Below, piece by piece: positions 32,009 through 61,400 of a stretch of 64,000 bases of DNA. A program made the translations under genes and the position numbers. Source of the DNA: Liolophura sinensis (lineage: Eukaryota; Mollusca; Polyplacophora; Chitonida; Chitonidae); the NCBI RefSeq assembly GCF_032854445.1, contig NC_088302.1:1614001-1678000 (forward strand). The letters are read 5' to 3'. Positions within the stretch are counted from its first letter, which is position 1. Every line of letters starts with the position of its first letter. The notes under the pieces are model-generated. The model was not told the DNA's origin and did no database searches. It saw only the letters and a program-made list of their open reading frames with translations.

Positions 32009-35000
32009 CTGTTAAAACAACAACAACAACAACATCCAGTCTAGTCAGGCATGGTTAGCTCTATGAGGTTTGTGCAGCAATAGTCAGACAAGAGCAAGTG
32101 TAGCAAACTGTATAAAAAGCCTTCTTTTCAGAAGTAACTCAGCACAGGGCTTAACAAAAGTACTTTTAAATATCAGTACTGTCAACTATTACAGGAGACA
32201 ATCTAATAAAACATTTTAACAAATTTGCATTTGAAGATCATGTGCCTTCATACTAAAGGTGTCCATTAACCAAAGAGCTACAGTAATAATACACTGCAAC
32301 CAACTAGGTGTATGTGTGTGTATGTGTCTGTCTATGTGTATGTCTGTGTATGTGTGTGTCTGTCTATGTGTATGTGTCTGTCTATGTGTGTGTGTCTGCC
32401 TGTGTATGTGTGTGTGTCTGTCTATGTGTATGTGTATGTGTGTGTCTGTCTATGTGTATGTGTCTGTCTGTGTATGTGTGTGTGTATGTGTCTGTCTATG
32501 TGTATGTCTGTGTATGTGTACGTGTGTGTGTGTGTGTATGTGTGTTTGTATGTCTATGTGCATGTGTATATGTGTGTGTATGTGTATGTCTATGTGTATG
32601 TCTATGTGTCTGTCCATGAGTATGTGTATATGTGTGTGTATGTGTATGTCCATGTGTATGTCCATGTGTATGTGTATATGTGTGTGTATGTGTATGTGTC
32701 TATCCATGTGTATGTGTATGTCTATGTGTATGTGTGCGTGTGTGTGTATGTGTGTGTGTCTATGTGTATGTGTCTGTCCATGCGTATGTGTATGTGTCTG
32801 TCCATGCATATGTGTATGTGTCTGTCCATGCGTATGTGTGTGTGTATGTGTCTGTCCATGTCTATGTATATGTGTGTGTCCATGTGTATGTGTCTGTTAC
32901 AGCAGTAGTAGGGAGTAAGTCATGGAGCAGTAGTGTGGAGTTAGTACTGGAGCAGTTGTGTGGAGTCAGTGATGGAGCAGTTGTGTGGAGTTAGTACTGG
33001 AGCAGTAGTGTGGAGTCAGTACTGGAGCAGTTCTGTGGAGTCAGTGATGGAGCAGTAGTGTGGAGTCAGTACTGGAGCAGTTCTGTGGAGTCAGTGATGG
33101 AGCAGTAGTGTGGAGTCAGTGATGGAGCAGTTGTGTGGAGTCAGTACTGGAGCAGTTGTGTGGAGTCAGTGATGGAGCAGTAGTGTGGAGTTAGTACTGG
33201 AGCAGTTGTGTGGAGTCAGTACTGGAGCAATAGTGTGGAGTAAGTACTGGAACAGTAGTGTGGAGTCAGTATTGGTAGTAGTGTGGAGTCAGTCATGCAG
33301 CGGCGGTGTGGAGTCAGTAATGGAGCAGTAGTGCACAGTCCATAATGGTAAAATGGTGGAGTCAGTAATGGTGTCCTGTGGAGTCAGTAATGGTGTCCTG
33401 TAGTGTCAGTGGTGTAATGTCAAAAATGAGTAATGGTGTAATGAGTCAGTAGTGGTGTAATGTGGGACCAGTAGTGTAATGTGGAGTCAGTAGTGTTGTA
33501 ATGTTTAGTCAGTAATGTTGTAATGTGGAGTCAGTAGTGTTGTAATGTTTAGTCAGTAATGTTGTAATGTGGAGTCAGTAGTGCTGTAATGTAGAGTCAG
33601 AAATGGTGTAATGTAGTCATTAATGGTGTAGTGTGGATTCATTAATGGTGCAGTGTGGAGTCAGTAGTGATGTAAAGTGGAGTCAGTGATATCAAGTAGA
33701 TGATGTGATACAAGAGTAATGTGACTATTTATAAACTAAATCAATTCTAAGAAAGAAAAAATACTGAAATTGGAGATATCAAAACTACCCATTCCAATCA
33801 ACCTTAGTTTTTACGTGATGTATAGTCATACATGAATGTTTCTGTGCTGAAATCTGTAGCAGAAAACATTTTAAAACTGTTTCATTGCTGCCTGCTATAA
33901 ACATAAATAATTTTTTGATGTGAAGATAACCACAACAGAACTCAAACAACAGTACGGGCACATACTTCTAGTTTTCATCAAGCCCAGTTTAAGCTGATAT
34001 TACCATACCTCCTCTTTCTTCTCGGTGTCAGTTTTGTACAGTTTAGCATTGTAACTTGGGAACTTTTTAGTGGGGGTACCCTCCGGAGCCTCACTCACTG
34101 TAAACAAAAGACAATACCTGTATTCCACATAGTGCTTCATCTAGATCATAAATCTCACTTTGTATTATACTATGTGAACTGCTAACCGTCATATTATCAC
34201 AACTGCTTTAAAACTCCCCTCCCTCAAAGTCTATCATTTGTTCAAGAGAATTTGTCTTTCACCAAAATTTGTTTGCACATGAAAGCTCATCAGTAACTTG
34301 CCAAAGGTCAGCTGTTTCTGGCACTCCGGTTTCCTCCACCCATAAAAATGACTGCGATTTTTTAACTTAAAAATTTTTGTAGTTGGCGTCAACAATCAAA
34401 TAAGTAAACAAATGGCTGCACTTATAAGAGAAGCTAGTACTCACACAGCTGCATGTCCGCTGGTCGCAGGCTGACCTTGGCTGGAGCTCGATTCATCCCT
34501 GAGAACCACTCTGCAGATGACATGGCCGGCTTCCAAGTCACTTTTGTATCAGGGAATATATCATCTTGGAAATAATCTTTCTGAAAATGGAAACACATGG
34601 TTCACAACTACACAGTAAAGTAACCTACATGTATATGTAATCAAGTTCATTGCTCAACAGTAGGAATGTGAACAGGTTATTGGCCTTTACATTTTTATAG
34701 GTTTAAGAAGGCAACAAGTAACACAGAGGAAAATGATGATTTTGGAGAACATTTCCTCAGGTGTAGAGCAAGTCATGGCACAAACGTAACAAAATATCTC
34801 CAATTAAACCCAATGCTTCATAATGTACCCTGGTGTGCATTGACTATTCATTGATTTCATCTATATCTTATAGGGTACACATGACTGACCTGTACACGTA
34901 AGACATCGCCCAGCATTATGGTGGCAGGATAACATATACTGATACATCTGAGTGAAAAGATATGCACACTACATAACATGTGGTTTTTTTGTTTTGTTTT

Positions 35001-38000
35001 AATCCAAAGGTATCCAACAAAGTGAGAGTAGTTGTCAACTAATCTTTTTAGCACAGATTTGCTCTTACTTTGACTCTAGGCACAGAGAAGGCGATTGGTT
35101 CCACTGTTGTCGCCCTCAGAACAGAGCCCCGGGCAAACTCCACCTTGCGTACGTCACACTCACACTTGGGGAGAAAGGACAGAGCCTGGTGCAGCGTACC
35201 TTTGTAATCTGACAGTCGGAAAAAGTGAGGGTACTCTTCTGATACTTCAAATGCTACCACAGTGCTGTCTCCCTGTGTAAACATACAGCAAACATAAGAG
35301 ACCATGCTCAGCTGATACTTCAAACCCTACCACAGTTCTGTCTCCCTGTGTAAACATACAGCAAACATAAGAGACCATGCTCAGCTGATACTTCAAATGC
35401 TACCACAGTGCTGTCTCTCTGTGTAAACATACAGCAAACATAAGAGACCATGCTCAGCTGATACTTCAAACACTACCACAGTGCTGTCTACCTGTGTAAA
35501 CATACAGCAAACATAAGAGACCATGCTCAGCTGATACTTCAAACACTACCACAGTGCTGTCTCCCTGTGTAAACATACAGCAAACATAAGAGACCATGCT
35601 CAGCTGATACTTCAAACACTACCAGTGCTGTCTACCTGTGTAAACATACAGCAAACATAAGAGACCATGCTCAGCTGATACTTCAAACACTACCACAGTG
35701 CTGTCTCCCTGTGTAAACATACAGCAAACATAAGAGACCATGCTCAGCTGATACTTCAAACACTACCACAGTGCTGTCTCCCTGTGAAAACATACCGCAA
35801 ACATAAGAGACCATGTTCATCTGATACTTCAAACACTACCCCAGTGCTGTCTCCCTGTGTAAACATACAGCAAACATAAGAGACCATGCTCCGCTGATAC
35901 TTCAAACACTACCACAGTGCTGTCTCCCTGTGTAAACATACAGCAAACATAAGAGACCATGCTCAGCTGATACTTCAAACACTACCACAGTGCTGTCTCC
36001 CTGTGTAAACATACAGTAAACATAAGAAACAATGCTCAGCTGATACTTCAAACACTACCACAGTGCTGTCTCTCTGTGTAAACATACAGCAAACATAAGA
36101 GACCATGCTCAGCTGATACTTCAAACACTACCACAGTGCTGTCTCCCTGTGTAAACATACAGCAAACATAAGAGACCATGCTCAGCTGATACTTCAAACA
36201 CTACCACAGTTCTGTCTCCCTGTGTAAACATACAGCAAACATATGAGACCATGCTCAGCTGATACTTCAAACACTACCACAGTGCTGTCTCCCTGTGTAA
36301 ACATACCGCAAACATAAGAGACCATGTTCATCTGATACTTCAAACACTACCCCAGTGCTGTCTCCCTGTGTAAACATACAGCAAACATAAGAGACCATGC
36401 TCAGCTGATACTTCAAACACTACCACAGTGCTGTCTCCCTGTGTAAACATACAGCAAACATAAGAGACAATGCTCAGCTGATACTTCAAACACTACCACA
36501 GTGCTGTCTCCCTGTGTAAACATACAGCAAACATAAGAGACCATGCTCAGCTGATACTTCAAACACTACCACAGTGCTGTCTCCCTGTGTAAACATACAG
36601 CAAACATAAGAGACCATGCTCAGCTGTTAACACACAGCAAACATAAGAAACCTGATCATTTGGGTTATAATACAGTGTAATCAGTGTGTGAAAAGACAGA
36701 AAAACCTCACTGGTCAAGGACCATAGTAGCTGCATTTATTCATTCATCTGATTCGTGTCTTACGCCATACTTAAGAATGTTTCACTTATACAACGGCGAC
36801 CAGCATTAGTGAGAGGCTCCTGAGTCATTGCACTGTTCTAGCAAGCTAACCACCTCGGGCACAGAGGCCCCCAGCTGCATTTATACATCAGTGCAGCAAG
36901 ACTCCACTCAGTAGTGTTTTGGATTTTAGCTAGTTTTTGTTCCCTTACTCTAACGCCACCTCGACAAATTCAAGAACTCACCCGTCCTGTGAGTAGGAGT
37001 GTTGAGCTATCCTCATCATAGTATGGAATCAAAATGGCGGGTGTGGAGTCCAGGCCCTCCCGTGACAGTGGTGCCTCCAGATTCTCTACATTGTAAATAC
37101 TCAGTTCTCTCTGCCTGGTTCTGGTGGGTAGAGCAAAGCAAACAACTACTGTGAACACAACGCATACATATCATGGGTGGGCAGGTGAGTGGGAGGAGGA
37201 TAAGGGAATACGAGTAGGCTGAAACTGTAGACATACAGACCAGCCCCCGTCACAGCACATCTGATATCACTTCAGAGGATATTGCTCAGTGAAGATTGAA
37301 TACCGTAAGTGTTTGGGGGAAATGATAATCCATCAGATACAAAGTGTGAAGTAGGTTATCATGTCCAACTTTCACGAGAAAAATATTCATGGTATTCAAA
37401 CTTCACTAGTATTATGTAATATTCTATTTATTACTTATATTTCGACAATATCATGATTTTGTGTATCTGAACAAGTTTATGCAAGTCCATTAATCAGTCC
37501 AGTCCATTTATCTTTGAGGGTAACTTGTAAAACTCAGACGCAGCACTCATAAATGTCACTCATAAAACTCAGGAGGTGCACTCACAAATGTCACTCATAA
37601 AACTCAGGGGCTGCACTCACAAATGTCACTCATAAAACTCAGGGGCTGCACTCACAAATGTCACTTGTAAAACTCAGAGGCAGCACTCACAAATGTCAAT
37701 GGTAAAACTCAGGGGGTGCACTCACAAATGTCAGTCGTAAAACACAGGGGCTGCACTCACAAATGTCAATGGTAAAACACAACGGCTGCACTCACAAATG
37801 TCACTTATAAAACACAGGGACTGCACTCACAAATGTCACTTGTAAAATTCAGAGGCAGCACTCACAAATGTCACCCGTAAAACACAGGGGCTACACTCAC
37901 AAATGTCACCTGTAAAACACAGGGGCTGCACTCACAAACGTCACTCATAAAACAAAGGGGCTGCACTCACAAATGTCACTCATAAAACACAGGGGTTGCA

Positions 38001-41000: not shown

Positions 41001-44000
41001 GGCCGTGTAACTGGTACCTTTCAGAGTTATCTGTCAGGTCCCAGACTCTCAGGGTCAGGTCATACGAGGCAGAGACCAAAACATCCTGAGCAAGCGGGTG
41101 AAAACGGATGAAGAATACCTTTTCTGTGTGACCTATACAACAACAACATTACAGGTTACAAATCATGTAGTTTCTCTATAAGTCATGAATTCTTAACATC
41201 GCTGAACTGAAACTTGCTCCATGTCTCACCATAAACTTGTCTTCCTCCAAACCTTACAATTTGATTTTTATAGTAATATTATCAAAATCCGAATCAAAAT
41301 TATTTTATTTATATTTAACTTATATTTGTGCAATGCCATATTCAAGAAGTGTTCTCTTATACAATGACGATCAAATTTATGGATGAAAACCATACAGGTG
41401 GGAGAAAAGTTCATGGTATTAAACGCCACAAGAACATCATCAACCACTTATGGTCACCAAGACCCCACACAGATTATTTTAAGATGGCTATCAGTTGTTT
41501 GTTACCTATAAGATAATCTTGTGGTTCAGTCAGGGTACCCTCCAAGTCATCTGGGACCTCCCAAATCCTGATGCGACCATCATCACAGGCTGGAACAGCA
41601 ACAACCAAGACAATTACTATCCATGTACTATGTGCTACATGTACAAATCACAGGCGCCACGAGTTTAACTCTGGTGTATCCCTGCAAGCAAATTCAGGCT
41701 GCTCCAGCACCTTCATACAAATGTACCATACATAAAACTGTCACTGAAAACAATGAAGTAAAATAAAACACATGTTCACTTACCAACAAGAAGTTTATGA
41801 TTGTCAAAAGGATCCCAAGCAAAGTCTGTGACTTTGCCCACATTCTGAACAGCTGGCACTCCAACATCAAACAGTTTACCTGGCTTGTTCAGCTGTTAAA
41901 GAAACAAAACACTTCAGAACACACTGATAAAATCTGCTAGAGATTATCAAACAAATGTCAAGTTTGTAAATAAAAGGGATGTGTCAAAGGCTGAAGTTTT
42001 ACCTTAATAGAGTCAGAGCAGAAAAAAGATATCCACACAAACATTGAACTGTGGGAGAATGATGAAATGCCTCATGTTTTGTACTTTTTGTACCAACATT
42101 CTGATTAGAAGATTGTGGAGTACCCTGGTTCATTTGGAGGCAACCAGCATTCTGATTAGAAGATTGTGGAGTCCCTTGGTTTATTTTGAGGCAACCAGCA
42201 TTCTGATTAAAAGATTGTGGAGTCCCTTGGTTCATTTGGAGGCAACCAGCATTCTGATTAAAAGATTGTGGAGTACCCTGGTTCATTTGGAGGCAACCAG
42301 CATTCTGATTAAAAGATTGTGGAGTACCCTGGTTCATTTGGAGGCAACCTGCATTCTGATTAAAAGATTGTGGAGTCCCTTGGTTTATTTTGAGGCAACC
42401 AGCATTCTGATTAAAAGATTGTGGAGTCCCTTGGTTCCTTTGGAGGCAACCAGCATTCTGATTAAAAGATTGTGGAGTACCCTGGTTCATTTGGAGGCAA
42501 CCAGCATTCTGATCAGAAGATTGTGGAGTACCTTGGTTCATCTGGAGGCAACCAGCATTCTGATTAGAGGATTACGGAGTACCCTACACAAAAGGGAGCC
42601 CTAAGACCTACAGTCAGCAACAATGGGATTGCAGTGTGCAATTTAATTGGTAGATGGCTGTTGACATACCAGCCTCTGAGTGTTAAGGCCATCACCATGG
42701 CCACTCATATAATAAACTTCATACATCGGCAGCTTTACAACTAGGATCCCTGATATGTAGCCTTCCCCATGTACCTCTAAGACATCAGTTCCCATAGACA
42801 CCTTTGCCTGAGTATAATCAGTCTCTACCTTTTGCAGCACATCCAGGTTATGCGCCCAAATCCCACCCCGCCCCCCTCCCCTTCACCACACACATGATCA
42901 CCACCAAGAATGAAATGCCCGTACCTCTAAGATAGCGACAAGGCCCCCAGGCCCCTCCAGGGGTACAGCACATCGCTCTGTGTTTGTGTGGAACATATCG
43001 CTCTCCCCAGGTATTGTCTTACATAACTTTCTCAGGTTTGTGATGTGTGTGTCCTTATGAGCAACTGTTGCCTTCAGGTGACGGAATTTTGACTGACGTA
43101 TGCCTGTAATTACACAAAGTTAATGCAGATCATAACTAACGTATACCTGACAAACCACACACCTGTAATTACACAAGGCAGACTATGCCTCATATATAAT
43201 TGACAAATCACACACCTGTAATTACACAAGGCAGACTATGTCTCATATATAACTGACAAATTACACACCTGTTATTACACAAGGTAGATTATGGCTTGTA
43301 TACCTGACAAATTACACATCTGTAATTACACAAGACAGACTTATAGACTCATGTCTATAGCTGACAAATTACACACCTGTAATTCCACAGGAAGGCTTTA
43401 ACTCATATATATATAACTGACAAATCACACACCTGTACTTACACAAGGCAGACTATGACTCATGTATAACTGACAAATTACACACCTGTAATTACACAAG
43501 GTAGATTATTACTCATATATAACTGACACACCTGTAATTATACCAGGTCAATTATGCTTATACCGGGTCAGTATAATATTGTGATGACAAACTAATGCAT
43601 AATACCTCTTCTCTGAGCTTTGAAAACCACATCTGAGGTGATTCACTGATTACATACACGTACAATAATCATTCCACTCAAATATCAAATTAAGGTGACC
43701 TGATACAAAGTCAAACAACTTTGGTGTTGACTGTTCTCCTCCACATTTTTTAATCTCTCAAGCACTACTAGCAGTAATAATTAAATACATACATTTTCTT
43801 TCACACCTTACCTGCAAAGACTTTCTGTGGAGCCTTTAATCTCATAGGTACATCTGCCACAGCACCATCGACCTCCACACTGCGGATATTGGCACCTGTG
43901 TTCCTCTCAAAGCGCTCTCTGGGTGGGGTTCGTGGCCGTTCCTGACTGACAGGAGGCGTGCTGTTGTTAAGGACGTCCCCCTGGCTGTTCAAATCCGTTA

Positions 44001-47000
44001 TGATGGGGGTGGGTTGAGGGGCAGGTTCGATCTTCTCCTGAGAACACACAATGTTACACAGGTGAGTGGTGTTGTAATGAGGTGCAGGTGCTCCATCAGG
44101 AAGCCCCCTTTACATTTAAGTCATGATATCTGATGTTCCAAACTTTAATACTGTCCTTAAATTAAAGTTTCCACAGGGAACCTTTAACATCAAAAGTACA
44201 AATACAGCTCTCTTCTCCATCATAAAGCATTTGATCACACCCATTAGCTGACTTAGACAATGTCAACTGTTCTCCAACACTACACACTAAATCATCCAAT
44301 GTTGTACATTTGGGCGTCTCCAAATCTTGTTCCGACAACCATCCACGAACACCTTAATGTTAAGCTTACCACGAGCACCGGAGGTGGATCCCGTCTGTTT
44401 ACTGGTGGGGACCGCTCTGGTTTCTTCACCTCTCCGTTCTTCTTCGGTTCTGCATGTCCGTTCCCGTGAGGTCCTGGTTCAGTTTTGTGAGTCTGTATCA
44501 GAGTTGCCTGCCCCTTATTCTGTCCCCGTTTGGTCATAAGAGGCGGAGCTTTGGCAGGATTCAGACTAACTTTCCTTACCTACAAACATAATTCTCAAAA
44601 TACAACACTGGTCTTACTTTATTAAACAGAATCTACAGGTAATATCAGCCCTTGTTTGAAACTATTTTGGTGTCATAATATAATGGTATAAAGTACAATT
44701 AAAAATGGCTTTTACTGAGTGTAGAACTGTTTAATTTTCTAGATAGGAGCTGGAACCTGATGACAAGTTTTGATTTATTATTTATTTATTTGACTGGTCT
44801 TTTACACCGTACTCAAGGTTATTTCATTTATGCGCCAGCGGCCAGCATTATTGGGGAGGAAACCGAACAGAGCCCAGGGGAAACTCACGACCATCCGCAG
44901 AATACACTTTGTAGTCAGAATACACATATACTCCAAGAAGAGTCAAAACAAAACAAGCAAATTATAAAGAGAATTAAATCTAAATATGCAAGAATTAAGC
45001 ATATACATGTACCACAGAGGTTTGTGTGTTAGTGTGGGATATATAGACCATCGCATCTTGTGAATGTCAAATACTGAAACCCTTCCCTAAAAACACATCA
45101 ACTTTATTTTGTCAACATTAATCCCCTGTATAAACACTAGTGGCACTATGTCATTAGTTAGTCGAGGCCTTAGTAGTAACTCCAGCGATGCTCACAGGTG
45201 TGTTAGCTCCGGCCAGCCATTCATCTGCTGTCATGGAGGGCTCCAGGGAGTTTGTGTCGGGGAATATGTCTGCGTGGAAATCTCTGTAGGACTGAAAGAA
45301 TAAAACTGAAACGCTACAGAAACTGCATGTCCATGTTAACCACGTCAAAATACTTTGAGTTAAACAATTCATCATATCAAACTTCCAATTATTTCACTTG
45401 TATCAGTTAACCATGTAACCACTAAGTATGCATTATTGTACAACAGTCAGAAAACAACATTAATTTATCAAGGACAAATGATCTGATTTTAAACATCATG
45501 CCCCAGGTTTATGAAGAATATGTGGTCTGGTTTTATGGCTCTACACTTTTGCCCATGACTAACTTGTATTATTAGCCTGATTCTGAGATCTATTGATATT
45601 AAAAGGGTATTTTGAGGTTTCAACTATCCCCAACCCTCTCCCCACACACACTTTCAACCCTCAACCCACACTAACCTTTCTGGGTACTATGTACAGGATA
45701 CCAGCCCTCAACTATCCCCCATCCTCTCCCCCCACACACTTTCAACCCCCAACCCACACTAACCTTTCTAGGTACAATGTACGAAGCCTGCTGGATCGAT
45801 GCCTTGTTCAGTAAAAGTAACCGGTTAGCCTCGCCAGACATCACATCGAGTGCCCTTTTGGGGACCATTGTGCAGCCCTTAATTTGCTCTGTGCGATCAG
45901 TGCCAGCTGAATGACAAAAGTGATCCCTTTTATTACAGGTAATGCTCAGCCAATGAGCATGTTTTCATTTCTCTGAGAAACAGTTCAAATCCCCGAATGT
46001 AATAACTGCATCACTCCTTCCTTCACGACACTGGTGACATAATTTAACAGGAGTGTGAAGCTCTAAACACGTCACAGCACAGGAATCTGCTCACTTCTTA
46101 CTATTACTTGTGCTTTTGTTCAAAGTTCTGCTCGAGTCTAGTTTCAGGTGTCACAAATATTATCATCAAATATGAAATTTCCAAATTATAAGCTATTGCT
46201 GAAGATTACAATGTTTTCTATGTTAGGCATGTAGGTTTGTTTGTCTGTCTGCCAAAAATCCTGGTCATGACCACTCGACACAGACAGCAGGCTTACCGAC
46301 ACAGATATCTGGCTTGTCAACTGGGGGAGTAACAAGAGCTGCCATAAAGTGCTTACCATGAAGGGTAGCAACACGTAATTTACCCAATTGGGAAATGGCA
46401 AAGAATTGGCAAATGTGCAGGGACAGTTTCCACTAAGCCATTTCTGACTTACGTCAGATACACTGTAACCCATGCATAGGAGAATTCAACAATTATACAA
46501 TTATCTATCTTACAATAGCTTTTTTTATTAATTCTTCTGTTTGTAGCCAAATAAAGTGACACACATTTTCAATTTATTAAGAAAGCCCCTCACAAGTTTT
46601 GATACAGGACACCAATAACAGAAAGTCCGTTACCCTTACATGTACATGATCTATACACAACATCTACAGCTGAAGTCAGTCACATGAAATATAACTTACA
46701 TTCTGACAAAAAAGGATCTTTATCTGACAGCTCCCAGAATTTTAAAATAGAGTCAGCCTGGAAAAAAAAATTAAAAACAGAAGAATTTAAATATGAAGTT
46801 ATTTCAAGGTTTACAGACATTTACAATAGCAACTCAGCTCATCTCAGTTCTCACTGGTTAAGGATGAGCATTTTCGCAGCTTCACAAGAGTAAACTTCAG
46901 ACAAATCTATCTTTGTACATATAACAGTGAAGATTAAAATCCTCTGACTGAGGAATAATCTGTAGTCTTATACTACTCTCCTAAATGCATCCCAACAGTT

Positions 47001-50000
47001 TTAGTTTGTGACAGGCTATGGACAACTTCCTGATAATTAGGCCCTGAGGTACAATGGATTTTGGACATTGAACAAGAGGCAATGTGTGATTTCCACAGCA
47101 CTCTTACCTTGCTAATCAGGAACACCATATTTGTATCTGGATCATAAAATGGCATTATTGTCCTGCAGAATGAGAAAATGTTGCTACATATAATCTCAAA
47201 CCTCTAGATAAACAGTAGTCATCTGCCGGTTGAGAAAGGTACATGGGCATTTTAACCCTGGGGGTGAAATTTTAAAATCTCACACCCAGGTTTTAAATGT
47301 CCATGTGCCCTTCGCAGATAATGATCTTGCCCATACAATGTTTATCAAATAGAAAGCCAGTTGGTTTAAATTCCATATCCCCGGTGAGGGCATGGCCTGT
47401 AGCTCTGACAAGTGTGTGTCAACAGTTTAACCCGCCTGATCAACCAATGGCAATAGAGAATCACAGATCATGTAAGGGACAAAGTAAGTTATTTAATATT
47501 CTACAGTTTACTCCTCAGAACCCATATACACGTCAACTAGACCAAATGAAAGTGACTTTATCATAGATATATCTATATATGTACATTGTTAAGACTTGCC
47601 CATCCATAATTCTTCAGGAACACTTACCCTGTTGATGAATCTAGTGTAAATGTCTTAGTGGGTGATGTCAGATGTCTACAGTCCCATAAAAATACTTCTC
47701 TGCTTCTCATCTAAAACAAAAATTCATTTACATGTATGCTTTCATAATGTACGATTGTATGAAGTATTTTCATACAATACTTCACTGACACTAGTGACAC
47801 TGTCTTTTCTTAGCAGTCCAGGTTCAATGTGGACACATTTATAATGCTGCCTCAGTAGAACACCATTCTAAAGACATCAGACCTAACACCCAAATCACTT
47901 GACTGACCCCGAGCATGACCAGGTATGTGGTATACATGTACATCGTCTACACCATGGCTCAGTTGTTCAAAGTGTGTTAAGACTTAAGCCCGGTATTAAC
48001 TACAGTCCAGACTGAAGTGTCATTTACACTGTATTAGGATGAGACTGGTGTTAAGATTTAAGCATTAACTATAGTCCAGACTAAAGTGTCATTTACTCTG
48101 TATCAGGATGAGACTGGTGTTAAGATTTAAGCCTGGCTTAACTTTAATGCATTTTTGAACAACTGGCCTCTGGTCACCAGAACACAGGAAGTGCCTACAT
48201 GTAGACTTCCAATCCTATGCTGTAAATCACATTGTACACACAACTATCTGTACTTCCATAGCAAATAACACTTCTCTGTTCAGTACCTCTGTAAGATACA
48301 GAAATTTTAACTAAGAAGGTGTCAGCATTGTAGTTGGATTTCGGCAATGTTTTGCTTTAGCTATTACTACCATGTATGTTATCACCTTGTAACGGATCAT
48401 CCATATTCATTTCCAGCTTAATTTGGATCAATTCAATTGATTTAGAGGAAATGATAAAGTCCAAAGAACCTACACTCTGTAAAGTGTTCAAATAAAACTA
48501 CCATAACAGGAAACTGTTGATCCCATCAGATTTCCTTCCTTACAAATACCCATATATCTGTCAAGTTTTACATATTACACACATGGATATGACTTCTTTG
48601 TTTGCCACATAAAGAATCAACATATATTACAAAAAGAAAATCATTCCTGAGATTGTGGCCATAGAACTTGTAGAATTTGTGATCTAAGGGAGATAACTCT
48701 ACAGGTTTACATGATGTACTGGTACATCTGGGAAATGCCAATCGCACATTCTCTAACCACTGCTCAGACTGGTTAACTATCTAAGAGTGGCTGCCTTCTA
48801 TCTTCCGTACATGTAAGTCTACCTCCAGCTGAATTACATGTGTTCTAATTCTAAAATTTACTAATGTCTCCAAAAATGAACAGGGTACTTGCAATGCCCA
48901 AAGTGTGAGTGTGGTATAAGTTCAGTAAAACTGGCACCAAGCATTCACCAGATAGTGTGTTTACAAAGATGTGGGCAAGCCGACAGGCCAACTAATGTTG
49001 GCCACTGCGACAATACATCTAGGCAAAGTTTGACTGTAAGGTAACAGCCGTACACAAACGACTGTGGGGTATCAGGTACACAAATGACCCTCAGGTATCA
49101 ACACCAGACAATCCTAGGGTATCAGGTACATAAATGACCCTGGGGTATCAACTATACAGATGACCCTGGGGTATCAGGTACACAGATGACCCTGGGGTAT
49201 CAAGTACACAAATGACCCTCAGGTATCAACAACAGACGATCCTAGGGTATCAGGTACATAAATGACCTTGGGGTATTAACTATACAGATGAACCTGGGGT
49301 ATCAGGTACACAGATGTAGATGTAACTCACATTATCAAACCCTGTGGACAAGAGTTGATCACGGTCACCCAGCCATATCACACGACAGTCCTTTATTCCT
49401 TCATGACCTTCACATTGCTGGAAACAACACAAAAGCAACAATTACAGTACAACCTGATACAGTGCAATCAGGAAACCACAAATGTCATGTATATTATGCT
49501 TACTGCTAGAATGACAAAGCCACATTCTCAAATGAATGCCAATCAGGTCAACACACTCAAAGAAAGGTTTAAAAATACAGATCCTTACACTTACTGTAGA
49601 TTCATTTGCGTCACTAAACATGCCATCTTTGTAAAACTGTGCGAATTATTCTATACACCACATAGTTCTCAGAATGTTTCAAAATATCGGTTGCAGAGGC
49701 AGCTGAAAACACTGAAGAATTAGGGTAACTCTAACAAACACTGGTGCTGTATGTACCCTGTACTGTCCAGCCACATCGTGACATGTAAACATATCCTAGC
49801 CATTTACCTGGACAATGGAGTTTGCTCTGGGGTCTATGATGCGGACCTGCCTGTCCTTACAAGAGCTGGCTAACAGTGCACCTGACCCACGCCAGCTGAT
49901 ACTCTGTATCTGATCCCCAAACTCTGACATATCTACAAGAGAAAGATCAGAGTTTTCTCGGTTTTGTTTACAGTTTGATGTGCCTCAAAAATCTGCTAAC

Positions 50001-55400: not shown

Positions 55401-58400
55401 TAGGCTTGTACCTACATGTACTAGGATTGTGCAGACTACGCTTGTGCTGACTAGGCTTGTGTTGACTAGGCTTGTGCAGACTAGGCATGTGCAGACAAGG
55501 ATTGTGCAGACGAGGATTGTGCAGGCTAGGATTGTGCAGACCAGGCTTGTGCAGGCTAGGATTGTGCTGACTAGGCTTGTGCTGACTAGACTTGTGCAGA
55601 CTAGGCTTGTGCAGACTAGGCTTGTGCTGACCAAGCTTGTGCTGACTAGGCTTGAGCTGACTAGACTTGTGCAGACAAGGCTTGTGCAGACATCTTGTGC
55701 TGACTAGTCTTGAGCTGACTAGGCCTGTGCTGACGTCTTGTGCTGACTAGGATTGTGCAGACTAGGCATGTGGTGACTAGTCTTGTGGTGACTAGTCTTG
55801 TGCTGAATGGGATTGTGCGGAGTAGGATTGTGCTGACTAGGCTTGTGCTGACTAGGCTTGTGCTGACTAGGCTTGTGCAGACTAGGCTTGTGCTGACTAG
55901 GCTTGTGCTGACTAGTCTTGTGCTGACTGGGACTGTGATGACTTGGATTGTGCTGACTAGGCTTGTGCTGACTAGGATTATGCAGACTAGTCTTGTGCTG
56001 ATTAGGCTTGTGCCTACATGTACTAGGATTGTGCTGACTAGGCTTGTGCAGACTAGTCTTGTGCAGACTAGGATTGTGCTGACTATGATTGTGCTGACTA
56101 GTCTTGTGCAGACTAGTCTTGTGCAGATTAGGATTGTGAAGACTAGTCTTCTGCAGACTAGGATCGTGCTGTCTAGGATTGTGCTGACTAGGATTGTGCA
56201 GACTAGGATTGTGCAGACGAGGATTGTGCTGACTAGGATTGTGCAGGCTAGGATTGTGCAGACTTATAGGATTGTAAAGGCTGGCTCCATGTGGGACTAA
56301 CATGCTATCAAAAAAGTTATTAAAGCACATTTTGCTTGATTCTGACAGTTGGTATGAGAAAGCTGTTTTCAGGGGTTTTTTTACCATGGAATATATCCAA
56401 CTGGAGAAATGTAAGTTGCAGAAATTCCCAAACTCTGAAATTTCTAGGCCGCATGCAGACTTCACTGACATTTTACATTTAGTGCATCATCTGTGAACTC
56501 TTACATATATTGACGTCCTCATAGAGCGGCAAACATGGAGATAATTCCAAGCAAACAAAACAATGTTGACAAGAATCAAGAGATGATGGAATTCATCTCT
56601 ATGACTTCCTCAAATATACATATTTACCTGGAATAATAAAAGAGTTTACTGGTCCAAGTCTTACACAATGGATGAAGCAGTTGTATATAATGCCTTTGAT
56701 GTTTGATTTTATGAGAACAAAAGGACATGTTTTGATTAAGGTATACATGAGGATATATATAAATTTAGCTGTATTAGTGTGATTCTCCTCGGATATCCTT
56801 ATCAACACTGCCACCATACGACCATTGTAGTACCACATACACCTCTTACCTGATACATTGCACCCCCTACCCCCCTCCACCCCCAATCCCCTGAACATGT
56901 GATTTATCAGATCATTTGCTAAGCGTTCAAAACAACCATTCCACACGACAGATGACAGGTCATTACCACCATTCTCCTAATCTGTGTGATAATATGTGAC
57001 ACTATGTTACATGCGGGCTGACAGAGAACAAACATTCCACATGACAGATGACGGGTCATTACCACCATTCTCCTAATCTCTGTGATAACGTTTGACACTA
57101 TGTTAGATGTGGGCTGACAAAAAACAAATTTGAATAATGATGTCTAAAGGTGAAATTTGCCCACTATTACATGAACTTTATTTTACCTAAAAATTTGTCT
57201 AAAAATGAGCATTTCAGACAAAAACAAACGTCATAAAATACTAGTATACATGTATTGTTCTAATTTATCATACACAATAATCCTGGTTTTCCAACAATCT
57301 CGAAAAACAGCTACGACCAATACATCAAAATGAGTTATAATAACTTTTTCAGAGCATACAAGTCCGATCTTACATGTACATGTAGTCCCACATGGAGCCA
57401 GCCATTACATAACACAGGTCCCAAACCCATCCTCTCCTGTCACACATGTACATGTAGTCCCACGTGAAGCCAGCCATTACATAACCCAGGTCCTAAACCC
57501 ATCCTCTCCTGTCACACATGTACATGTAGTCCCATATGGAGCCAGCCATTACATAACCCAGGTCCTAAACCCATCCTCTCCTGTCACACATGTACATGTA
57601 GTCCCACATGGAGCCAGCCATTACATAACCCAGGTCGTAAATCCATCCTCTCCTGTCACACGTGTACATGTAGTCCCATATGGAGCCAGCCATTATATAA
57701 CTCAGGTCCTAAACCCACCCTCTCCTGTCACACATGTACATGTAGTCCCACATGGAGCCAGCCATTACACAACCCAGGTCCTAAATCCATCCTCTCCTGT
57801 CACACATGTACATGTAGTCCCACATGGAGCCAGCCATTACATAACCCAGGTCCTAAACCCATCCTCTCCTGTCACACATGTACATGTAGTCCCACATGGA
57901 GCCAGCCATTACATAACCCAGGTCCTAAATCCATCCTCTCCTGTCACACATGTACATGTAGTCCCACATGGAGCCAGCCATTACATAACCCAGGTCGTAA
58001 ATCCATCCTCTCCTGTCACACATGTACATGTAGTCCCACATGGAGCCAGCCATTACATAACCCAGGCCCTAAATCCATCCTCTCCTGTCACACATGTACA
58101 TGTAGTCCCACATGGAGCCAGCCATTACATAACCCAGGTCCTAAACCCATCCTCTCCTGTCACACAAATACATGTAGTCCCACATGAAGCCAGCCATTAC
58201 ATAACCCAGGTCCTAAACCCATCCTCTCCTGTCACACATGTACATGTAGTCCCATATGGAGCCAGCCATTACATAACCCAGGTCCTAAACCCATCCTCTC
58301 CTGTCACACATGTACATGTAGTCCCACATGGAGCCAGCCATTACATAACCCAGGTCCTAAACCCATCCTCTCCTGTCACACACATACATGTAGTCCCACA

Positions 58401-61400
58401 TGGAGCCAGCCATTATATAACCCAGGTCCCAAACCCATCTTCTCCTGTCACACAAATACATGTAGTCCCACATGGAGCCAGCCATTATATAACCCAGGTC
58501 CCAAACCCATCCTCTCCTGTCACACATGTACATGTAGTCCCACATGGAGCCAGCCATTACATAACCCAGGTCCTAAACCCATCCTCTCCTGTCACACACG
58601 TACATGTAGTCCCATATGGAGCCAGCCATTACATAACCCAGGTCCTAAACCCATCCTCTCCTGTCACACATGTACATGTAGTCCCACGTGGAGCCAGCCA
58701 TTACATAACCCAGGTCCTAAACCCATCCTCTCCTGTCACACAGGTACATGTAGTCCCACATGGAGCCAGCCATTACACAACCCAGGTCCTAAACCCATCC
58801 TCTCCTGTCACACAGGTACATGTAGTCCCACATGGAGCCAGCCATTACATAACCCAGGTCCTAAACCCATCCTCTCCTGTCACACATGTACATGTAGTCC
58901 CATATGGAGCCAGCCATTACATAACCCAGGTCCCAAACCCATCCTCTCCTGTCACACATGTACATGTAGTCCCACATGGAGCCAGCCATTACATAACCCA
59001 GGTCCCAAACCCATCCTCTCCTGTCACACATGTACATGTAGTCCCATATGGAGCCAGCCATTACATAACCCAGGTCCTAAACCCATCCTCTCCTGTCACA
59101 CATGTACATGTAGTCCCACATGGAGCCAGCCATTACATAACCCAGGTCCTAAACCCATCCTCTCCTGTCACTCATGTACATGTAGTCCCACATGGAGCCA
59201 GCCATTACATAACCCAGGTCGTAAATCCATCCTCTCCTGTCACACGTGTACATGTAGTCCCATATGGAGCCAGCCATTATATAACTCAGGTCCTAAACCC
59301 ACCCTCTCCTGTCACACATGTACATGTAGTCCCACATGGAGCCAGCCATTACACAACCCAGGTCCTAAATCCATCCTCTCCTGTCACACATGTACATGTA
59401 GTCCCACATGGAGCCAGCCATTACATAACCCAGGTCCTAAACCCATCCTCTCCTGTCACACATGTACATGTAGTCCCACATGGAGCCAGCCATTACATAA
59501 CCCAGGTCCTAAATCCATCCTCTCCTGTCACACATGTACATGTAGTCCCACATGGAGCCAGCCATTACATAACCCAGGTCGTAAATCCATCCTCTCCTGT
59601 CACACATGTACATGTAGTCCCACATGGAGCCAGCCATTACATAACCCAGGCCCTAAATCCATCCTCTCCTGTCACACATGTACATGTAGTCCCACATGGA
59701 GCCAGCCATTACATAACCCAGGTCCTAAACCCATCCTCTCCTGTCACACAAATACATGTAGTCCCACATGAAGCCAGCCATTACATAACCCAGGTCCTAA
59801 ACCCATCCTCTCCTGTCACACATGTACATGTAGTCCCATATGGAGCCAGCCATTACATAACCCAGGTCCTAAACCCATCCTCTCCTGTCACACATGTACA
59901 TGTAGTCCCACATGGAGCCAGCCATTACATAACCCAGGTCCTAAACCCATCCTCTCCTGTCACACACATACATGTAGTCCCACATGGAGCCAGCCATTAT
60001 ATAACCCAGGTCCCAAACCCATCTTCTCCTGTCACACAAATACATGTAGTCCCACATGGAGCCAGCCATTATATAACCCAGGTCCCAAACCCATCCTCTC
60101 CTGTCACACATGTACATGTAGTCCCACATGGAGCCAGCCATTACATAACCCAGGTCCTAAACCCATCCTCTCCTGTCACACACGTACATGTAGTCCCATA
60201 TGGAGCCAGCCATTACATAACCCAGGTCCTAAACCCATCCTCTCCTGTCACACATGTACATGTAGTCCCACGTGGAGCCAGCCATTACATAACCCAGGTC
60301 CTAAACCCATCCTCTCCTGTCACACAGGTACATGTAGTCCCACATGGAGCCAGCCATTACACAACCCAGGTCCTAAACCCATCCTCTCCTGTCACACAGG
60401 TACATGTAGTCCCACATGGAGCCAGCCATTACATAACCCAGGTCCTAAACCCATCCTCTCCTGTCACACATGTACATGTAGTCCCATATGGAGCCAGCCA
60501 TTACATAACCCAGGTCCCAAACCCATCCTCTCCTGTCACACATGTACATGTAGTCCCACATGGAGCCAGCCATTACATAACCCAGGTCCCAAACCCATCC
60601 TCTCCTGTCACACATGTACATGTAGTCCCATATGGAGCCAGCCATTACATAACCCAGGTCCTAAACCCATCCTCTCCTGTCACACATGTACATGTAGTCC
60701 CACATGGAGCCAGCCATTACATAACCCAGGTCCTAAACCCATCCTCTCCTGTCACTCATGTACATGTAGTCCCACATGGAGCCAGCCATTACATAACCCA
60801 GGTCCTAAACCCATCCTCTCCTGTCACACATGTACATGTAGTCCCACATGGAGCCAGCCATTACATAACCCAGGTCCTAAACCCATCCTCTCCTGTCACA
60901 CATGTACATGTAGTCCCATATGGAGCCAGCCATTACATAACCCAGGTCCCAAACCCATCCTCTCCTGTCACACATGTACATGTAGTCCCACGTGGAGCCA
61001 GCCATTACACAACCCAGGTCCTAAACCCATCCTCTCCTGTCACACATGTACATGTAGTCCCACGTGGAGCCAGCCATTACACAACCCAGGTCCTAAACCC
61101 ATCCTCTCCTGTCACACATGTACATGTAGTCCCACGTGGAGCCAGCCATTACACAACCCAGGTCCTAAACCCATCCTCTCCTGTCACACATGTACATGTA
61201 GTCCCACGTGAAGCCAGCCATTACATAACCCAGGTCCCAAATCCATCCTCTCCTGTCACACACGTACATGTAGTCCCACATGGAGCCAGCCATTACATAA
61301 CCCAGGTCCTAAACCCATCCTCTCCTGTCACACATGTACATGTAGTCCCATATGGAGCCAGCCATTACATAACCCAGGTCCCAAACCCATCCTCTCCTGT

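Follow-up and report, generated by a model that had tools for sequence, protein, structure and literature searches.

The coronin-7 locus

The window (C8:1614001-1678000), i.e., the whole 64,000-nucleotide stretch of the Liolophura sinensis genome analyzed here, carried on its minus strand a gene encoding two coronin units, each of which matched coronins of known structure. The species was first named Liolophura japonica, later corrected to L. sinensis (PMC11068029, available in part; PMC12441733), and the assembly was made from HiFi reads with a mean length of 8,347 bp at 14x coverage (PMC11068029, in part). Twenty exons were mapped by homology and splice signals; the linker was left unmapped, so the number 21 that an earlier note had given to the exon central to this study cannot be confirmed, and the exon is called e17 here. 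The first coronin unit matched coronin-6 (E 9.1e-58, for a query assembled manually, with gaps, from the peptides of nine exons). Eleven of the mapped exons joined into a single frame of 453 aa without a stop, residues 1–389 of which matched coronin-6 (7kyx, E 8.9e-68). Pfam analysis of the second coronin unit placed DUF1899 and WD40_4 above their cut-offs, with the top row, a THOC3 propeller, below its own cut-off. Two coronin units in one gene are the mark of coronin-7. With two units, a DUF1899 N-terminal motif and a WD40_4 C-terminal motif, the gene has the make-up of a coronin-7 (CORO7).

Exon e17 was 204 bp long (35069..35272, minus strand, as are all features of this gene given below), with the acceptor AG at 35273-35274 and the donor after 35069, as indicated by the ORF, the splice sites, the open frame and homology across the junction. 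The preceding coronin exon e16 (36982..37120, donor GGACGG|GTGAGT) and the following exon e18 (34445..34580) were placed by splice sites and open frame. The protein junction at the true e17 edge aligned with LCGKGDSSIRYFEI of coronin-6 (7kyx). Both coronin units seem to share an intron position, at FLISK|ADS (46757-47108) in one and LLTGR|GDS (35272-36982) in the other; of these two apparently shared positions, only that in the second coronin unit had an acceptor array.

A minisatellite at the acceptor of e17

Directly at this acceptor lay a tandem array (35239..36626) with a period of 73 bp, 19.0 copies, 96% matches and a TRF score of 2580; chance is excluded as its origin. The list of units on the minus strand revealed that each consisted of 39 intron bases ending in CACAG followed by 34 exon bases, and thus carried a complete-looking 3' splice site, with one unit of 71 bp, 2 bases shorter than the others. 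CACAG was present in 19/19 units and the AG in all 18 upstream copies (hereafter decoys). TRF and the unit list therefore bear out the earlier note, which had described a 73-bp unit with about 39 intron and 34 exon bases and 18 extra upstream copies keeping CACAG. The unit adjoining the exon, its exon part running from 35272, was the authentic edge, because the protein alignment crosses that junction. Its intron part (35273..35311) read, as did every unit, as a candidate branch point ctctTAt with the A at -23, a T-rich stretch and CACAG, with no AG before CACAG; the branch point is a candidate from direct reading of the units. The decoys extended over 35312..36626, with exon starts at 35345, 35418, 35491, 35564, 35635, 35708, 35781, 35854, 35927, 36000, 36073, 36146, 36219, 36292, 36365, 36438, 36511, and 36584. 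Beyond them a degenerate partial copy at ~36627..36660, read from the sequence rather than computed, comprised the intron part only and ended in TTAACAG. The exon side of the unit ended in TATCAG, sharing CAG with this far-end copy, which may be the ancestral upstream breakpoint.

Selection on CACAG was considered and rejected: among 18 units (the 71-bp unit excluded) 15 of 73 columns were variable, and at that rate a given set of five columns is expected to show no variation with P 0.31. That the units kept CACAG therefore does not indicate selection. A 292-bp query of four units, searched against the genome (609.46 Mb, 632 contigs) by a method that may miss repeats, gave six matches, all within the e17 array, which is consistent with birth in place. 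No second haplotype of the array was found by this search, subject to the same loss of repeats.

Separately, contig C99 (108,685 bp) contained seven COX1 matches spaced ~15.5 kb apart on one strand, as if it were made of head-to-tail mitochondrial genomes, which could reflect concatenation during assembly or a large insertion into the nuclear genome. The separate mitochondrial contig, C632, was 15,209 bp long. In the mitochondrial contig TGA was a sense codon, and the gene order, with genes identified by eye, resembled the ancestral order of molluscs, which points to the chiton and not to amphioxus, the host considered at first.

Two further arrays of this kind were detected in CORO7. The first (45620..45782; TRF, recurrence and sequence), with an 88-bp unit in 1.9 copies, duplicated the e8 donor AGAAAG|GTTAGTG, for which the last exon base was 45764. 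The other (43142..43528; TRF and sequence) was an older, decayed acceptor array of 53-bp, TTGTGTAATTACAG|GTGTG-like units upstream of e10 (acceptor 43103). It offered eight acceptor-like positions upstream, 7/8 then followed by GT, and the true e10 edge had diverged from its array units. The e10 case was counted by eye and was missed by the 30-mer tests.

Reading frame and splice-site strength

The coronin frame was open only from the exon-proximal acceptor of e17. All 18 upstream choices met a stop, after 32 codons for 16 copies, 29 codons for one and 7 codons for one. The earlier note had claimed frame loss from upstream choice; the outcome was stronger than that, since decoys offset by a multiple of 3 were not rescued and reached a stop too. 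Decoys ending in stops are unremarkable alone, as this is expected of intron-derived sequence.

Splice-site strength was scored with our own matrix, built from consensus frequencies and not a trained model, for e17 and the similar arrays described in the next section. Decoys scored as high as or higher than the true site in 50 of 83 cases, drawn from the 13 arrays with scored decoys (e10 gave none and L132 was unscored), and in the e17 array this held for 14 of 18 decoys. Among aligned decoys 83/86 kept the AG or GT, and use of a decoy was followed by a stop in 82/83 of those scored. The exception was the single e8 decoy, which shifted the frame and met no stop in the stretch read. A difference in strength between true and decoy sites was rejected as a general rule on the basis of these 50/83 decoys. 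Strength may help in L019, L022, and L109, where the true site was above all or nearly all decoys; in the myosin case L019, the true donor was GTGAGT and 16/17 decoys (GTCAGT and similar) scored lower. In the kinase case L126, all three decoys (GTAAGC) were above the true GTATGC. Since each copy carries an apparently whole 3' splice site, local strength cannot pick the right one. What was constant was position: the coding copy touched the exon body everywhere, being the last-transcribed unit for acceptors and the first-transcribed unit for donors.

Survey of exon edges

Minisatellites that duplicate a splice edge have been described in amphioxus as "mirages", in Adh3, the globins BflGb6 and BflGb9, PGBD5 and troponin C (PMC3087553, PMC3902484, both available in part). 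The same structure was found here at 15 of 144 exons (10.4%, 95% interval 6.0–16.6), equivalent to 15 of 286 edges (5.2%, 3.0–8.5), or 14/286 edges without e10. By gene, mirages occurred at 3/20 exons of CORO7 (one of them decayed), 7/81 of myosin, 4/23 of kinase and 1/20 of kinesin. They comprised 7 acceptors and 8 donors. The seven myosin head cases were L019, L022, L026, L028, L069, L080, and L085, the kinase cases L109, L111, L120, and L126, and the kinesin case L132. One example was L028, with 21.9 units of TTTCTTGTCTGCTGTGTTTGTAG|GTTTGAGCG upstream of the myosin exon ERNQSIIVSGESGAGKT and the AG kept in 19/21 aligned decoys.

The survey exons were genome-wide Pfam profile matches, selected without sight of their flanks. 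The myosin set took in every one of the 81 matches (44 tested with at most 6 mismatches in 30, 37 with at most 8). The kinase exons were 23 short matches of 138, taken roughly in table order with some passed over, and the kinesin exons were the first 20 of 132 matches without stops and under 260 bp, taken after the other sets had been counted. Exon edges were approximate, as some matches contained stops and may overrun the exon. All 15 counted mirages were inspected at the sequence level, L109 resting on an inferred acceptor; L074, in which the array ended 11 bp before the acceptor, and L032 were flagged yet uncounted. The rates exclude the 30 top-ranking kinase loci, most of which were large or whole-domain matches whose edges are not known; these loci had no array across the match ends and one short internal repeat that was flagged (L058), and adding their 60 edges would give 15/346. 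In controls, the recurrence test flagged 1/800 edges on Markov-resampled loci and 1/80 exon interiors.

With the same structure at 15/144 sampled exons, the e17 array is not special to CORO7. Splice-edge minisatellites are a genome-wide class in this chiton rather than a singleton.

Density and unit length of the arrays

When all TRF rows were counted, arrays covered 24,197 bases of the window, or ~38% (23,994 bases with a trimmed list). Within CORO7 introns their coverage was 33.5%. Coverage was 12.5% of the myosin loci, where overlapping loci were counted twice, and 1.9% around large kinase exons. Set against each other, the values for the large kinase exons (L039-L068) and for myosin (L009-L038) make minisatellites seem concentrated in introns. 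According to the available part of the genome paper, simple repeats, microsatellites and RNA together make up 0.08% of the genome, and unclassified repeats 14% (PMC11068029); compared with ~38% in the window, this suggests that minisatellites may be largely unclassified there. A minisatellite close to the right-hand end of the window (57372-63512) had a 72-bp unit in 85 copies and occupied 6.1 kb.

Across the first 246 edges, coverage was 12% at 80–240 bp into the intron and 6.1% at 5–20 bp, and within the match 4.3% at 5–20 bp and 2.6% at 20–40 bp. Enrichment of arrays at splice edges was rejected, as coverage dropped towards the edges. By a strict 30-mer test, 2/38 CORO7 edges recurred vs. 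188/600 random gene-region positions. The smooth fall towards exon edges looks like that of tolerated passengers, not of selected controls. We read mirages as the tail end of a dense population of minisatellites in introns, approximately halved at the edge and not targeted to splice sites; the arrays are not wholly cost-free, their density at exon edges being about half of that found 80–240 bp away.

The unit length was a multiple of 3 in 1/15 mirages vs. 17/48 other arrays of 25–150 bp (Fisher one-sided P 0.027, two-sided 0.047), in a test that was post hoc and borderline. When the irregular arrays e10, L022, and L109 were left out, multiples of 3 were found in 1/12 (P 0.063). The 48 background arrays omit all arrays in mirage-bearing loci and in the kinesin loci. 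Three of the rows omitted from mirage-bearing loci were not mirages: a 25-bp array, recorded at L019 and again at L026, and one of 63 bp in L028, the latter a multiple of 3. If real, the avoidance would mean that decoys are used often enough to matter, which argues against pure neutrality. Counter to a filter on frame, the only mirage with a unit that was a multiple of 3 (L026) had stops in 7/7 decoys, and the e8 decoy, as noted, showed none in the stretch read.

How the exon-proximal copy may be chosen

The joint reading that we consider probable is that the e17 array is a mirage carried as a passenger, in which exon definition picks the exon-proximal copy and mis-choices decay. A tandem duplication would by chance have spanned the intron–exon boundary of this coronin-7 exon, and ordinary unequal exchange or slippage would have raised the number of units to 19; all units separating the preceding exon from the exon-proximal one would thereby have turned into intron. 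The spliceosome would then couple the acceptor to the genuine donor on the far side of the exon and to enhancers within the exon itself, so that the winner would be the copy that abuts the exon body and yields the shortest exon (204 nt vs. 277, 350 and on). Mis-choices would lead to an early stop and presumably to nonsense-mediated decay, leaving the array as a tolerated member of the genome-wide chiton class. Exon definition is favored because a first-come rule fits donors only, and pairing across the exon fits both donors and acceptors. The acceptor used at e17 is, judging from protein homology, probably the exon-proximal one. The second alternative of the earlier note, that this copy wins by some rule, is accordingly the one we favor, with exon definition as the likeliest candidate for the rule.

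A wider proposal, which we put forward tentatively and regard as rather doubtful, is that minisatellites copying splice sites are pervasive (~5% of edges, 1 in 10 exons), that tens of thousands of decoys, by extrapolation, are ignored through a shortest-exon rule, and that only frame-shifting arrays, whose errors are destroyed, survive. If this were true, the frame filter would explain why 14/15 unit lengths are not multiples of three.

The first alternative in the earlier note was a noisy control of coronin-7 level dependent on allele length: use of decoys would rise with the length of the array and lower coronin-7 through nonsense-mediated decay. The early stop from every e17 decoy, the 14/18 decoys equalling or exceeding the true site in score and the weak avoidance of multiples of 3 all speak for such control. 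However, 12 of the 15 mirages were in myosin, kinase, and kinesin, nothing points specifically to CORO7, stops would be expected in intron-derived sequence regardless, and amphioxus mirages have been reported to splice normally in the available parts of PMC3087553 and PMC3902484. We consider this explanation unlikely. What stands of the interpretation in the earlier note is an amplified splice acceptor whose exon-proximal copy is coding and whose 18 other choices truncate the message; control particular to CORO7 is not supported, given the same structure in four kinds of gene, donors affected as often as acceptors, the normal splicing reported for the amphioxus cases and a smooth fall of coverage.

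Somewhat less probable still is that the arrays supply material from which introns could be gained or exons altered, through decoy edges that later turn into real ones. This has been proposed for the amphioxus globins (PMC3087553, in part), and the decay of the e10 array, with a true edge diverged from its units, would fit; however, the present data give no example of an intron gained or an edge moved in this way. Stepwise removal, in which AG sites with a GT behind them would serve as dual or recursive splice sites for excision of the array unit by unit, appears very improbable at e17. Two of the 19 units did read CAG|GTAGAC, with a donor score of 1.1 that is low yet higher than the scores of three among the best donors of the gene itself (0.5, 0.7, and 0.8), GT followed 7/8 acceptor-like sites in the decayed e10 array, and human UBC uses dual-specific AG|GT sites in tandem repeats (PMC10809524, in part). 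In the remaining 17/19 units, however, no GT followed the AG, and there was no further donor-like site scoring at least 0 in the stretch scored. That the array is an assembly artefact is hardly credible: coverage was only 14x, but the mean HiFi read of 8,347 bp (PMC11068029, in part) far exceeds an array of 1.39 kb, the units differed at 15/73 columns and the structure recurred at other loci.

Choice among equal splice sites is usually studied with a few artificial copies. This genome provides natural counterparts, with as many as ~20 near-identical acceptors or donors in a row within ordinary genes, and protein homology shows which of them is the right one. RNA sequencing for the species is mentioned in the available part of the assembly paper (PMC11068029), and existing RNA reads could measure which copy is chosen, how the choice varies with distance and with copy number, and what burden such errors place on RNA quality control.

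Comparison with known systems

Among the papers listed in literature searches, which cover few subscription papers, there was no mirage outside amphioxus and none in a mollusc; the nearest cases among those listed were human exon-border repeats (PMC2812944, in part). None of four splice terms occurred in a Daphnia repeat paper, and a C. elegans paper, in its available part, concerns intronic motifs.

Internal tandem repeats within human segmental duplications are similar to the chiton arrays in that a minisatellite lies at an exon–intron border and can alter gene structure (PMC2812944, in part). The human repeats change exons or make new introns, whereas in the chiton the coding exon and its frame were unchanged. 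In human UBC, too, one site has to be selected among equal splice sites arranged in tandem; its sites delimit coding ubiquitin monomers, and the choice of isoform is stochastic (PMC10809524, in part). Unlike in UBC, about half of the chiton unit is intron, decoys truncate the message, and only 2/19 unit borders read AG|GT, so the e17 array is not a dual-specific array of the UBC type.

The closest counterpart is the amphioxus mirage. As described in the available part of PMC3087553, mirages have a unit spanning the boundary, the authentic edge at one end and in frame, and splice signals within the units, and the e17 array showed all three; the same source describes mirages at both types of edge, as in the 8 donor and 7 acceptor cases of the chiton genome. 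In both animals a tandem repeat duplicates a donor or acceptor edge, the authentic copy lies at the exon and unit lengths are similar, those in amphioxus being 10–72 bp in Adh3, 150–160 bp in the globins, and 60 and 108 bp in PGBD5 (PMC3087553, PMC3902484, in part). RT-PCR suggested that regular splicing is undisturbed in amphioxus, with cryptic use noted as possible (PMC3087553, in part). Polymorphism in copy number, either somatic or between haplotypes, is also part of the amphioxus description. The chiton differs in being a mollusc, in array size (19 units in e17 and 22 in L028, vs. 6 and 3 in two BflGb6 haplotypes, in the available part of the amphioxus work), in carrying arrays at ~1 in 10 sampled exons, and in being known from sequence where amphioxus has RT-PCR. 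The phenomenon, already known in amphioxus, extends to a new phylum and is unexpectedly common here. Its occurrence in so distant a phylum suggests that mirages are a general consequence of a high birth rate of minisatellites in introns.
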